Shown piece after piece: positions 17,109 through 23,264 of a DNA stretch of 64,000 bases (position 1 is its first letter; each line of letters begins with the position of its first letter). The stretch covers positions 28,224-92,223 of the forward strand of contig JAUWAU010000023.1 of NCBI GenBank assembly GCA_030601885.1, given 5' to 3'. A program made the position numbers and the translations under genes. This stretch comes from Armatimonadota bacterium. Its GTDB lineage: Bacteria; Armatimonadota; Zipacnadia; JAUWAU01. Below the pieces are notes generated by a model. It saw only the letters and a program-made list of their open reading frames with translations, was not told the origin of the DNA and made no database searches.

Positions 17109-18143
17109 TCACCGGGGCAAGTTGTCGTCCGGGTGGAAGTCGGTTGACAGCCACCCTTCGCGCCGAAAGAGGAAGTCCTCGTTCTCGTACATCATCGGCG
17201 CCACGGCAACGGCCGCGAGGCGGAAATCTCCGCACAGCGTAAGCTCCAGCACGCCACTGTTTGCGTGCCCGACGATGGCCCAGGATCCATACTCCCCCGC
17301 CGCGACGCGGGGCATTGTGCGCACCTCGTCCCGCCCGGGCGAGACCTCGCACGGCCCGATGGCGCGCTCCGGCGATCCCACGAGAAGACTGACCAGATAG
17401 TACCCCTCGCGCTCCGTCCGCAGTCGCAGGACCGGGCCATCCTTGGCCGCTGCCTCGCGTGGCCACGCGCCTTCGGCACGAACTGGAGCCGTCTCCGCGA
17501 ATCGCGCGTCGGATTCCAGCCTGAGCAGCGACGGATCCGCCCAGCTCGCCACCGCATTCGTCTCCGGGTGCCCGAGCGCACAGGTGGCGTAACCCCCGAC
17601 ATCACGCTCTCCAACGTTGACACGCAGCACGGGCACGTTCGGCTGGGTCCAGCGGTTGCTTCTCAGCGGATGTACCTGCTCGACCGGAATGTCCAATGCG
17701 CGGCAAATGATGAGCTTGAACTCGTGCAACCCGCCCAAGTGCGTCTTCCCCTCGCCCGAGTGCAGACGGTAGCCATCCCCTTCACGCAGGAGACTCCACG
17801 TGGCGGTCGTCTTGGTGAGGCCGTCGGCGCCGATCCAGAGCCCACGGACGGTGAGGTCGATATCGAGTGCCCCTCCTGGCAAATGCGCCCGCATGTACCG
17901 CAGGTCTCGAAGCTGCGTAATGCCCTTGGGGCCGAGACGCCCGACGAGGATGCGGCCGAAGGCCCAGCAGAAGTAGGCGGACGGCTCGGTGAGGTCGAGC
18001 TTAGCCCATGCCGGTTTGCTGTAAGCCTCGGACAGCGCCGTACGCGACTTCAGCGTCGCATAGATGCTGGGGTGGCTCAAGAACGGAACGGCGTTCACCT
18101 CGGTGCCCACCGTGTCGCAGACGGGCGTGCGCGATCCGGCCAC
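17109..18143 (-). CDS. Hypothetical protein, possibly 5'-truncated
   Basis: Long ORF of protein-like composition ending 11 bp from the convergent CsgG-like gene. No signal peptide; N-terminus overlaps a different small ORF. Confidence 0.5.
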   Translation of the reverse strand: MAGSRTPVCDTVGTEVNAVPFLSHPSIYATLKSRTALSEAYSKPAWAKLDLTEPSAYFCWAFGRILVGRLGPKGITQLRDLRYMRAHLPGGALDIDLTVRGLWIGADGLTKTTATWSLLREGDGYRLHSGEGKTHLGGLHEFKLIICRALDIPVEQVHPLRSNRWTQPNVPVLRVNVGERDVGGYATCALGHPETNAVASWADPSLLRLESDARFAETAPVRAEGAWPREAAAKDGPVLRLRTEREGYYLVSLLVGSPERAIGPCEVSPGRDEVRTMPRVAAGEYGSWAIVGHANSGVLELTLCGDFRLAAVAVAPMMYENEDFLFRREGWLSTDFHPDDNLPR

Positions 18144-18298
18144 GCGCTGAATACCTCCTCAGCCCGGTCAACGAAATCATCGAAGTCGCCAGCCACGGCA
18201 AGCGCGGCATATTGCTCAATGGCCGCTGCCGCTGCGTCCTGGTCGCCACTGGCCAACTCGTCCAGTAGGTTCTTCGCGAGTTGCTGCCGCTCGTCCAT
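18095..18298 (-). CDS. Small helical protein of unknown function (possible truncated antitoxin-like)
   Basis: MDERQQLAKNLLDELASGDQDAAAAAIEQYAALAVAGDFDDFVDRAEEVFSAW; purine-rich GGGAAGGG upstream. The C-terminus runs into the neighbouring ORF in another frame. Confidence 0.35.
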   Translation of the reverse strand: MDERQQLAKNLLDELASGDQDAAAAAIEQYAALAVAGDFDDFVDRAEEVFSAWPDRARPSATRWAPR

Positions 18299-18532: not shown

Positions 18533-18561
18533 TTTACGAGCGGCCCAGTATGGTATATACT
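18533..18561 (+). promoter_or_regulatory. Candidate sigma70-type promoter for the tandem-hairpin RNA
   Basis: TTTACG (18533-18538)-N17-TATACT (18556-18561); predicted TSS near 18568, the first base of hairpin A. Confidence 0.55.
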
Positions 18562-18567
18562 ACGGAT

Positions 18568-18664
18568 GAGGCCCGACGCGGCACCCTTCGGGTGCCCCAC
18601 CTGGCCTCTCCCAAGAGACCCGAGGCGGTGCTCTAGTAGCACCCCACCTGGTCTCTTTTCTTTT
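18568..18664 (+). ncRNA. Candidate small structured RNA: two tandem 41-nt homologous hairpins
   Basis: A (18568-18608) GAGGCCCGACGCGGCACCCTTCGGGTGCCCCACCTGGCCTC; B (18615-18655) GAGACCCGAGGCGGTGCTCTAGTAGCACCCCACCTGGTCTC. Same length and architecture; differences are compensatory at 4/38, 15/27, 16/26 and 18/24. Confidence 0.6.
18613..18664 (+). terminator. Rho-independent-like terminator formed by hairpin B
   Basis: AAGAGACC...GGTCTCTT outer stem followed by TTCTTTT. Confidence 0.6.
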
Positions 18665-18820: not shown

Positions 18821-19147
18821 CTCTTCATACTGTACGCGATGGTCGCGTATCCTCTGCTCAACATCCTCTTGGGGCACGCCCACCCCCGATCACCGGGCTT
18901 CGGTGTGGCGCCGTGCCCGACGACCATCTTCACATTCGGGCTACTGTTGTGGACGAATAGCCGGGTCCCGAAGTACATCCTGGTGGTCCCGGCGCTGTGG
19001 TCGCTCATTGGATTCAGTGTCGTGGTAAAGCTCGGCGTGCTTGAAGACACCGGCCTGTTGCTGGCCGGTGTCGTGGGAACCGCAATGCTTCTGTATCGCG
19101 ACAGAAGTCGGGCAGCCGTCGTGAGCCCCGACATACACGACGTGTAG
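18812..19147 (+). pseudogene. C-terminal fragment of a DUF6064-like membrane protein
   Basis: TGALFILYAMVAYPLLNILLGHAHPRSPGFGVAPCPTTIFTFGLLLWTNSRVPKYILVVPALWSLIGFSVVVKLGVLEDTGLLLAGV resembles the DUF6064 C-terminal half; the N-terminal half is absent upstream. Confidence 0.6.
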
Positions 19148-19208: not shown

Positions 19209-22200
19209 CTACCGCCGCCGAAACTCAACAAGTGGCCCAGTGCCTGAGCCCCTCAAGCCCTCGTCGAAATGAAAGAGCAGGACCGTGTCAGCGTCTTCGA
19301 CGAGGGGCTCCCCGGGCGGCACGAAGTCTTCGTGATACCTGACGATCCGAGAGACGCGGAATTCATCGTAGGTGGCCGCGAGCGGGCCGAGCGTCAGCCG
19401 GCCGTCGCCTTTGCGGTCCGGCGCCGGCTCTGTGAGCTCGGCGATCATCCTCCCGTTGCGGTAAATGGCGTACGACGGCGGATCCTTTCTCCACACGCAG
19501 GCGATGTGGTTCCACTCTCCTGCTTTGAAGGCAGCATACGCGCTCGCTCTCAGCAGCCAGCCTTGGCCTCTGTTCTCCCAGGCGGGATGGAACTGCACCC
19601 AGGTCAGGAACATATCGGACTGGTCCCACGCCGGCTGGTTGCGGTAGCCGAAGTAGAACGGCGGCGCCGTCCAGAAGGGCTTGATGGATCTCTCCGGGTA
19701 CCAGTGCGTAGACCAGTCGGTGCGAATCCAGCATTCGATCGTCCCCTCCGGGAAGGGGAACTCCTTTGACCCGGGGACGGCCTCCCAGCGGGCCTCCCAG
19801 GGCTTTCCCATCACATGGAGCCCCTGCCCGAACCGCCCGCCCACGAGGCCCTCCTCGGTTGGCGGCTCCCACTCATCCTCCGGTTTCGCTCTCGGGATAC
19901 CGGGCGGCACAAAGAAGCGCTCCCGGTCACCGAAGGCAACCGCCGGCTTGAGATCCTCGAACCGTACGAAGGTCGCCGGCCCGGGGATGAAAGACCAGAG
20001 GCCATCCCGACCGGTGGTGGCGACAATGATCCGCCCTGTTTGGTCGCGCGCCTCCTCGACCTCTGTGCCGGAGGGGTCCAGAACACGAACGGGCCGGCTT
20101 GTCTTGATGGTGAACGCCGCCTGAGCTTCGGGGACCTCAAAGAAGTACGGCTTCTCGCGCGTCAAGCCGTATCCGCACCCGCTCCGATGGCCGAAGTACG
20201 TGCCCTCGGGAAACGACAGCACGAGCTTATCGATGTTGCAGCCGATGACGATAAAGCGATTGAGCCCCAGCGAAATACGGTACGGGCCCGCCGGCGCCGC
20301 CGCCGGGATGGCGATTCTGTAGACCAACGCCCGATGCGAGGGCACCCTTTCCGCGCCCGCTGCGGGCGCATCCTTGCCGTCTGGTCCCGTGACCCGGACC
20401 GATGGCTCCTGGGACGGCTCCGATTTGACGCTGATGATCTGAACGAACAGCTCTGCCTCCTCGCCGGCCTTCTTCCCGACGTAGACAGGGCACTCGGCGT
20501 TCCGGCCAAGGTTCGCAACGTAGGGGAACACTCCCACATCGTCACCGGCATCACCGAGGCCTGCGAGGATGTGCGGGACGGAAAACCACGCAAATCCCTG
20601 CACGTGGGGGGCGAACTTGTGTTGGTGTTCGCGGCTCGCACGCGCCGCCGCGGGCAGGGATTCGAACTCCCGCAGCCATCGCAGGGCGCTCTCCAGATGG
20701 GCCATGGCAGCCGCCCGGTACGCACGGTTGCCCGTCCACTCGAAGCAGCGCACCAGGTACATCGGCGCTACGTTCTGGTACGAGAGTGGCGCCCGGCGGC
20801 AGGAGTGGCCGAACAATTCCTGGTTGGCCTTCAGCACAGCCTGCTTCGCCTTCTCCACGCCGAACAGGTCGTAGTAGTCCAGCAGGGCCATGATCTTACG
20901 GTCGAACTTGTACGTGGCGTCGTACGTCTCTAACGATCGCGTGTAGAACTTGGCGGAGAAGCCCAGCTCAGCGTCCAGGTCAATGAGGGCGTCCGCGAGC
21001 GCATGGATCTTCTCAGCCAGTCGCGCGTCCTGCGTGACTTCGTACGCGTTGATCATCATGCTGAGGTGGGTGAAGGGCGTCGAGAACGAACGGGTCGTGT
21101 CCAGGTCCCACAGTCGATTCATGGCGTCCGTGTATCGCTCGAGCGCGTCCCTCGCCCAGCGCAGGTCGCGGAGGAAGTAGGCCATCCGGAACGGGACCAT
21201 GTAGTCCGTGGACTGCCCGCTCGTGTCCCACTTGCCGCCGGGAGTGTCCCAGTAGAGCGGCAGTTGCACATCGCCGCCCACGGCCAGGAGCCCTTTCTCC
21301 TTGTGCGCGCGGCCGCCGCTCCAGTGGATCGTCTTGAAGTCGGCCAGAAAGCGGGTATAGGGCTCGGCGAAGTCCAGGTACTTCCGATCCCCGGAGCGCA
21401 GATAGGCCACCCAGATGTTCTTCGGCGTGTTATAGGCAGCGACGTTGTTGAGGCGGTAGAAGCCCGCGTATAGCTTGCCGTTCTCACGCCGCTCGTAGGC
21501 CAGCTCCGGCCCCACGCCGTAGCTGATCCAGCCGGTCATGGGGAACTCCTTCATCCGCGCCAGCCAGTAGTCGAAGTACTTGGAGATGAAGCGCTCAGCC
21601 TCCGGGAAGCGCGCCTCGTCCTTGGCGGCGATGGGCCAAAAGGCGCCCGATGCACCGAGCCAGCTCGGATCTGCCACGGCAACGGGCGGCTTCTCGAATG
21701 CCGCGACCCAGCGCCGGCTGGTGGCTGGATCCGGACTGCCGGAGTGGTATGCGCAGAAGATCTCGTGCGTCCGGGCCGATCCGAGGCCCGTCGGGTTGAG
21801 CTTCTTGAAGCCCTCCTCGTCTACGCGCACGACCACGCCGTGCGCCGGTACGGGCCGTGATATGCCGGCGATCCAGTCGCCATAGTAGTCCTTCACGAGC
21901 GTCGCCGGTCGGTAGTCGAGCTCCTGGCCGCCTCGGTTCGACCAGAGCCTCGCCGTCACGCCATTCGGGCCCACGTGCAGCTCCTTGGGAAACTGCTCGG
22001 CGAAGTGCCTGACGGCGACCGTTATTCCGCTGCTCTCGTCGGCCGCCTCGCACCAGCCGGCGGCGACATTGCCCTCACTCAGCGTTTCCGCTCTCCCGGC
22101 CGAGAGCCGTCTGACAGAGAAGTGCGATCGAGTCTCGGCGAAATGCGGATACTCGTCCTGAAAGATCCACGCTTCGTCCCCAGCGCGCTCGATGTCGGCC

Positions 22201-23054
22201 ACAACGTCCTCGCCTCGCTCGACGCCGAATCGTGCCTGATCGCGCCCGCTCGCGCCCCTTGGAAACCGGACGCCCACTTCCCTGAACCACAGCCGATCGG
22301 TGTCCTCCGTGAAGATGAACGTGTGATCCAGCGTGAAGAAGGCCCGGCCGGCGTACAGGTGATACCGCACTACCGCCCTGGCCAGACGCACGCCGTCTGG
22401 TGTGACGTACCACCCCTCCACTCGGACGACGGCGCGAATGGGACCTGCGTCCTCGATGGTCCAGGAGAGCTCCGCTCCATCGCCTCCCAGGATGCCCTTG
22501 CGACCTTGATGGTCAACTACATAGACCCCGTGCCCATCGTCTCGAATGCGGGAGAGCCCCTCGATCTCGACGCCCGTGGGTGACGCGAAGCCTCGATCCC
22601 AGAGAATCCGCATGCGGCCGGTGTCCACGAAGATGCGCCGGCCTTCGCGCACGACTTTGAGCGCGGGCTCGGGCCCGGGCATGGGGGCGGGGCGCGGGCC
22701 CATCTCCAGGAAATAGCGGTCGCTCGGGTCGCCCTGGAAATCGACCCAGATCCATTTGATGCTGCCGTCGGGCCATCTGGTCCTCGGGGTGACCTGAACG
22801 GGGAGCACGCCCTGCTTCGTGCCCCGAAGCCGCAGCCCATCGGCTGATGGCACCTCACCGCGGGGCAACGGCACGCCTGCGCCCAGAGGCCACGTACCCG
22901 GCCCGCGGAAGGCGCCAGGGTCCACGCGAAGCTCAATCCGTTGCGCGTCTCTCACTTCAGGCGCAGCGTGAAGCGCTGACGCAAGCATCACTCCGAGGAT
23001 CGCGACGACGTACGTGATGATCGACACGGCCAGGCCCCCTCCGCACGGCGACAT
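19209..23054 (-). CDS. PcRGLX/YetA-like (exo-rhamnogalacturonan lyase-like) secreted protein with C-terminal LamG-like domain
   Basis: Start ATG 23054 with signal peptide; LPRGEVPSADGLRLRGTKQGVLPVQVTPRTRWPDGSIKWIWVDFQGD is typical of the family N-terminal barrel. C-terminal FPEGTIECWIRTDW...AGEWNHIACVWRKD is LamG-like. Confidence 0.78.
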   Translation of the reverse strand: MSPCGGGLAVSIITYVVAILGVMLASALHAAPEVRDAQRIELRVDPGAFRGPGTWPLGAGVPLPRGEVPSADGLRLRGTKQGVLPVQVTPRTRWPDGSIKWIWVDFQGDPSDRYFLEMGPRPAPMPGPEPALKVVREGRRIFVDTGRMRILWDRGFASPTGVEIEGLSRIRDDGHGVYVVDHQGRKGILGGDGAELSWTIEDAGPIRAVVRVEGWYVTPDGVRLARAVVRYHLYAGRAFFTLDHTFIFTEDTDRLWFREVGVRFPRGASGRDQARFGVERGEDVVADIERAGDEAWIFQDEYPHFAETRSHFSVRRLSAGRAETLSEGNVAAGWCEAADESSGITVAVRHFAEQFPKELHVGPNGVTARLWSNRGGQELDYRPATLVKDYYGDWIAGISRPVPAHGVVVRVDEEGFKKLNPTGLGSARTHEIFCAYHSGSPDPATSRRWVAAFEKPPVAVADPSWLGASGAFWPIAAKDEARFPEAERFISKYFDYWLARMKEFPMTGWISYGVGPELAYERRENGKLYAGFYRLNNVAAYNTPKNIWVAYLRSGDRKYLDFAEPYTRFLADFKTIHWSGGRAHKEKGLLAVGGDVQLPLYWDTPGGKWDTSGQSTDYMVPFRMAYFLRDLRWARDALERYTDAMNRLWDLDTTRSFSTPFTHLSMMINAYEVTQDARLAEKIHALADALIDLDAELGFSAKFYTRSLETYDATYKFDRKIMALLDYYDLFGVEKAKQAVLKANQELFGHSCRRAPLSYQNVAPMYLVRCFEWTGNRAYRAAAMAHLESALRWLREFESLPAAARASREHQHKFAPHVQGFAWFSVPHILAGLGDAGDDVGVFPYVANLGRNAECPVYVGKKAGEEAELFVQIISVKSEPSQEPSVRVTGPDGKDAPAAGAERVPSHRALVYRIAIPAAAPAGPYRISLGLNRFIVIGCNIDKLVLSFPEGTYFGHRSGCGYGLTREKPYFFEVPEAQAAFTIKTSRPVRVLDPSGTEVEEARDQTGRIIVATTGRDGLWSFIPGPATFVRFEDLKPAVAFGDRERFFVPPGIPRAKPEDEWEPPTEEGLVGGRFGQGLHVMGKPWEARWEAVPGSKEFPFPEGTIECWIRTDWSTHWYPERSIKPFWTAPPFYFGYRNQPAWDQSDMFLTWVQFHPAWENRGQGWLLRASAYAAFKAGEWNHIACVWRKDPPSYAIYRNGRMIAELTEPAPDRKGDGRLTLGPLAATYDEFRVSRIVRYHEDFVPPGEPLVEDADTVLLFHFDEGLRGSGTGPLVEFRRR

Positions 23055-23264
23055 TGTCTGAGCTTCTTCGGTCCTTCGAACGTTAATCCTGCACGCCTCT
23101 GCGAGACGGAGCGGCGGCCAGATCGCGGGCGATCCGCTGCAGCACATTGCGTGTAGCCTCGTATCGGCTCAGCAGAGGATTCTCGCTGTCCGCACCTGAA
23201 CTGTATGCGAGAGCGGAGGAGTAGTAGGCTGGTCTGCTGGCAGGCCACGTGAGGGAGCACGACC

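Follow-up and report, generated by a model that had tools for sequence, protein, structure and literature searches.

A tandem-hairpin element with a duplicated internal-loop module as a candidate small RNA of an Armatimonadota bacterium

Protein-titrating RNAs of the CsrB/RsmY type present repeated hairpin binding sites within one RNA, the GGA loops of which bind CsrA, and the antitoxin RNAs of type III toxin-antitoxin systems consist of repeats with a terminator-like end. The repeats of such ToxI-like RNAs are short and arranged in tandem (PMC8860590). The alpha-r14/NfeR1 (“cuckoo”) sRNAs of alpha-proteobacteria carry three hairpins, which share an identical anti-Shine-Dalgarno motif, CCUCCUCCC, on highly different stems (PMC10746234). 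Here we describe two 41-nt tandem repeats on the plus strand of a 64,000-nt stretch of DNA from an Armatimonadota bacterium (the window; features in Table 1). Judged by analogy of plan, the nearest known design is that of the alpha-r14/NfeR1 family: several hairpins are packed into a short RNA, a C-rich motif is repeated, and the stems diverge. The element differs from that family in having two hairpins rather than three, in lacking any sequence relation to it, in having CCACCU as one strand of an internal loop, whereas CCUCCUCCC lies in an unpaired region, and in carrying a motif whose complement is not enriched at the starts of its own genome.

The element also resembles mini-ykkC (guanidine-II) RNAs in its two similar small tandem hairpins; however, its apical loops read TTC and CTAGT and lack ACGR, as an earlier sequence-only reading of this DNA had noted, no Rfam match was obtained at the thresholds tried, and instead of an intact downstream gene or transporter there is a DUF6064 gene fragment. 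With type III antitoxins it shares short tandem repeats and a terminator-like end, but no ToxN/AbiQ-like toxin gene lies directly downstream. Repeated hairpin sites within one RNA recall CsrB/RsmY, yet the apical loops contain no GGA and the sites number only two. The mini-ykkC, type III antitoxin and CsrB-like identities each fail a defining feature that we tested.

Table 1. Coordinates of the promoter-like site, the two hairpin modules and the associated motifs within the window
Feature	Position	Strand	Description
Sigma-70-like promoter TTTACG-17-TATACT	18533..18561	+	consensus match
Hairpin module A (copy A)	18568..18608	+	6-bp outer stem, 6x6 internal loop, 7-bp inner stem, TTC loop
Invariant CCACCTGG of module A	18597..18604	+	
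Linker TCCCAA, 6 nt	18609..18614	+	
Hairpin module B (copy B)	18615..18655	+	6-bp outer stem, 6x6 internal loop, 6-bp inner stem, CTAGT loop
Invariant CCACCTGG of module B	18644..18651	+	
T-rich tail TTTTCTTTT	18656..18664	+	possible intrinsic terminator, module B as hairpin

The two copies are identical at 29 of 41 positions, and the repeat, its 6-nt separation and its coordinates are as the sequence-only reading had given them. Both copies form the stems and the 6x6 internal loop (CGASGC on one side, CCACCT on the other) proposed there: all 12 stem pairs are Watson-Crick in copy A and all 12 in copy B, with none broken, and the outer stem of module B is predicted to reach 8 bp when its flanks are counted. 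The 12 differences between the copies comprise eight in the stems, one in the internal loop and three in the apical loop; the eight stem differences resolve into exactly the four compensated pairs that had been claimed (4/38, 15/27, 16/26 and 18/24). When the 5' sides of copy A are paired with the 3' sides of copy B, or the reverse, only 8 of 12 pairs are Watson-Crick (9 or 11 when G-U is counted). Because pairing is perfect within copies and poorer between them, the differences favour two local hairpins; on the same counts we rejected a single long 6S-like hairpin, in agreement with the earlier view that the element does not fit one.

Conservation between the copies is concentrated in the internal loop, where 11 of 12 bases are identical against 18 of 29 elsewhere, a contrast of marginal significance (hypergeometric probability ~0.06); the stems and apical loop together differ at 11 of 29 positions. 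In the predicted fold G-C pairs close part of the 6x6 loop, and CCACCT is therefore not freely single-stranded in every state. The earlier proposal of an invariant, exposed CCACCT face thus holds for the invariance and only in part for the exposure.

Folding of the 100-nt stretch gives a minimum free energy of −49.7 kcal/mol (z −6.3), which none of 200 shuffles equalled, and the 153 nt upstream show no structure (z 0.75), which confines the structure to the tandem hairpins. Under uniform substitution, the chance that eight random stem changes yield four Watson-Crick-compensated pairs is ~8e-6, and sliding the pairing partners abolishes the compensation signal; a two-sequence shuffle control is weaker, with 27 of 500 shuffles reaching the observed compensation. 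We scanned 2.04 Mb of the same genome (the window plus other stretches) for tandem 41-nt repeats that share one compensated fold: the element headed the ranking (consensus energy −23.2 kcal/mol), and the runner-up, at −14.8 kcal/mol, overlaps a long reading frame.

The promoter-like site matches the consensus at 9 of 12 positions and is the only such site between 18000 and 19200, where 0.2 are expected in shuffled sequence. Given its spacing, transcription is predicted to begin near 18568, on the first base of copy A; site, spacing and start all agree with the sequence-only reading. A T-rich tail does follow copy B, as had been claimed, and an intrinsic terminator formed by module B and this tail is plausible from the sequence. 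The terminator proposal is nevertheless weakened by the lack of genome-wide enrichment of hairpin-plus-T-tract sites: a crude scan of the 2.04 Mb counted 15 such sites, fewer than the 24 of the reversed control, and general use of intrinsic terminators was not detectable in that portion of the genome. The element accordingly combines, as an intergenic small RNA should, its own promoter, in the sense of a consensus match and not of activity, with structure beyond chance. It is probably a genuine structured RNA and, on its sequence features, a good small-RNA candidate; sequence and compensation lend good support to the earlier claim of a structured RNA that has two homologous modules and a promoter of its own, and the transcript itself is a prediction.

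Downstream on the plus strand lies the DUF6064 fragment (18839-19147), which aligns to profile positions 118-205 of 210; it lacks the first 117 positions, that is, its N-terminal half, and is apparently decayed. It was the only match among the downstream reading frames, which yielded neither a toxin gene nor a defence-family match. On the minus strand upstream, the reading frames 18095-18298 and 17109-18143 have no Pfam or defence-family match; these two overlapping frames (67 aa and 344 aa, respectively; together 17109-18298) may belong to a single gene with a frameshift or to two genes whose translation is coupled. Farther downstream, 19209-23147 encodes on the minus strand a 1312-aa protein in which PcRGLX-like domains (exo-rhamnogalacturonan lyase family) are accompanied by a LamG-like match below threshold. 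Searches of the window for tRNAs and Rfam elements returned none.

Relatives were sought at several depths. Rfam 15 gave no match at the gathering threshold in the whole window and nothing near threshold under lax filters, consistent with the novelty that had been proposed, and the element is single-copy in the 6.8-Mb genome. Covariance models of the single module and of the tandem found no relative in 46 genomes of the class, the nearest of which belong to other families, or in 291 genomes of the phylum. Weak matches in two genomes were rejected: in G059 the sequence lies inside a long reading frame, and in G223 it is a GC-rich palindromic stretch without CCACCT. The latter stretch (G223:C80:1356-1437, in another member of the phylum) is tandem palindromic, strongly self-complementary and unrelated to the element. 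A motif pattern run over 84,980 GTDB species genomes returned 81 stretches, and none of the 80 that were scored with both covariance models resembled the tandem. A tandem CCCACCTGG pattern occurred in four stretches of other class members, from which the module is absent as judged by sequence. Seven viral pattern matches did not fold as tandem modules, a fixed-length single-hairpin pattern gave no match in viral contigs, and BLAST found nothing in phages or plasmids. With no homologue in the collections searched, the evidence comes from two copies in a single genome.

We propose, at about an even chance of being right, that the element specifies a noncoding RNA of ~97 nt with a duplicated internal-loop module that most likely binds a protein. 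According to this proposal, a plus-strand RNA running from 18568 to about 18664 would be transcribed from the promoter-like site, its two modules having arisen from one by duplication; each internal loop, CGASGC/CCACCT, would be recognized by a partner, most likely a protein; the two sites could be offered to a dimer or act as a small titrating sponge; and module B would also assist the end of transcription. Variation between the copies falls mainly in the stems and apical loop, whereas the internal-loop sides are nearly unchanged (11 of 12), which suggests that the internal loop is the working part; retention of both sides fits a loop motif that is read as a unit. A protein-binding loop is favoured by elimination of other roles. 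Tentatively, and with appreciably less confidence, the element may be the founding member of an undescribed RNA family, in which the repeated 6x6 loop (CGASGC/CCACCU) would be a novel motif for binding a protein or ligand, confined to a lineage that has been poorly sampled.

Among other readings, we judge it unlikely that the element is a trans-acting base-pairing sRNA whose repeated seed, CCACCUGG, would occlude ribosome binding sites on the model of alpha-r14/NfeR1. The analogy lies in the common plan of repeated hairpins with one C-rich motif and highly different stems (PMC10746234), and CACCU is common to the motif and to the 16S tail of this genome, GGAUCACCUCCUUUCU. Moreover, CCAGGTGG-N3-11-ATG has 68 occurrences, compared with 15 of the reversed pattern, which is a poor control, and AGGTG is about twofold enriched upstream of 929 inferred starts (57 vs 27 in the control), an excess that GGAGGTG-type sites would be expected to give. 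AGGAGG, however, is strongly enriched upstream of these starts (51 vs 3), whereas AGGTGG, the complement of the motif, stands at background (17 vs 13) and CCAGGTGG is absent (0 of 929). A general anti-Shine-Dalgarno role, as the sequence-only reading had suggested, is therefore not supported; specific targets may exist. Against a seed also count the conservation of the 5' loop side, for which a seed has no need, and the partial pairing of the motif in the predicted fold. Quite unlikely, in our view, is a DNA-level element, in which tandem inverted repeats would be bound as DNA or extruded, as in an operator, a recombination site or a repetitive palindrome. The compensated pairs are equally expected of a DNA hairpin, and this counts against the RNA explanation; the genome also contains another, dispersed palindrome that sometimes occurs in tandem. 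Yet the element is single-copy, has no flanking repeats and no sequence kinship with that palindrome, and its promoter followed by a T-tail is the correct order for a transcript. The dispersed palindrome, CACGGGTAGC-NN-GCTACCCGTG, is a REP-like family: it is perfect, has 22 strict copies in 2.04 Mb (e.g. C87 41907, 71903, 71995 and 145924; C70 137540, 138987 and 140835), some of them in close pairs, and is absent from the window.

The same-strand position upstream of the DUF6064 fragment would suit a leader or attenuator acting in cis on the DNA that follows, or else a doubled terminator left over next to a decayed gene. We consider this improbable: the loss of the N-terminal half of DUF6064 leaves no intact gene to control, and there is no sign of the mutually exclusive structures of an attenuator, cross-copy pairing being worse than local pairing. 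Chance, or a recent functionless neutral duplication, would accord with the failure to find a relative in the genomes searched and with a neighbourhood that resembles decaying intergenic DNA, but is very improbable given that four pairs are compensated and no pair is broken, and given the clear outlier position of the element in the 2.04-Mb scan.

In conclusion, the element is at present a single well-formed orphan, a candidate RNA in a bacterium for which the closest relatives sampled so far fall into other families. Should it be transcribed, it would constitute a regulatory RNA that is specific to its lineage and contains a duplicated module, and its internal loop would offer a well-defined target in the search for an RNA-binding partner.
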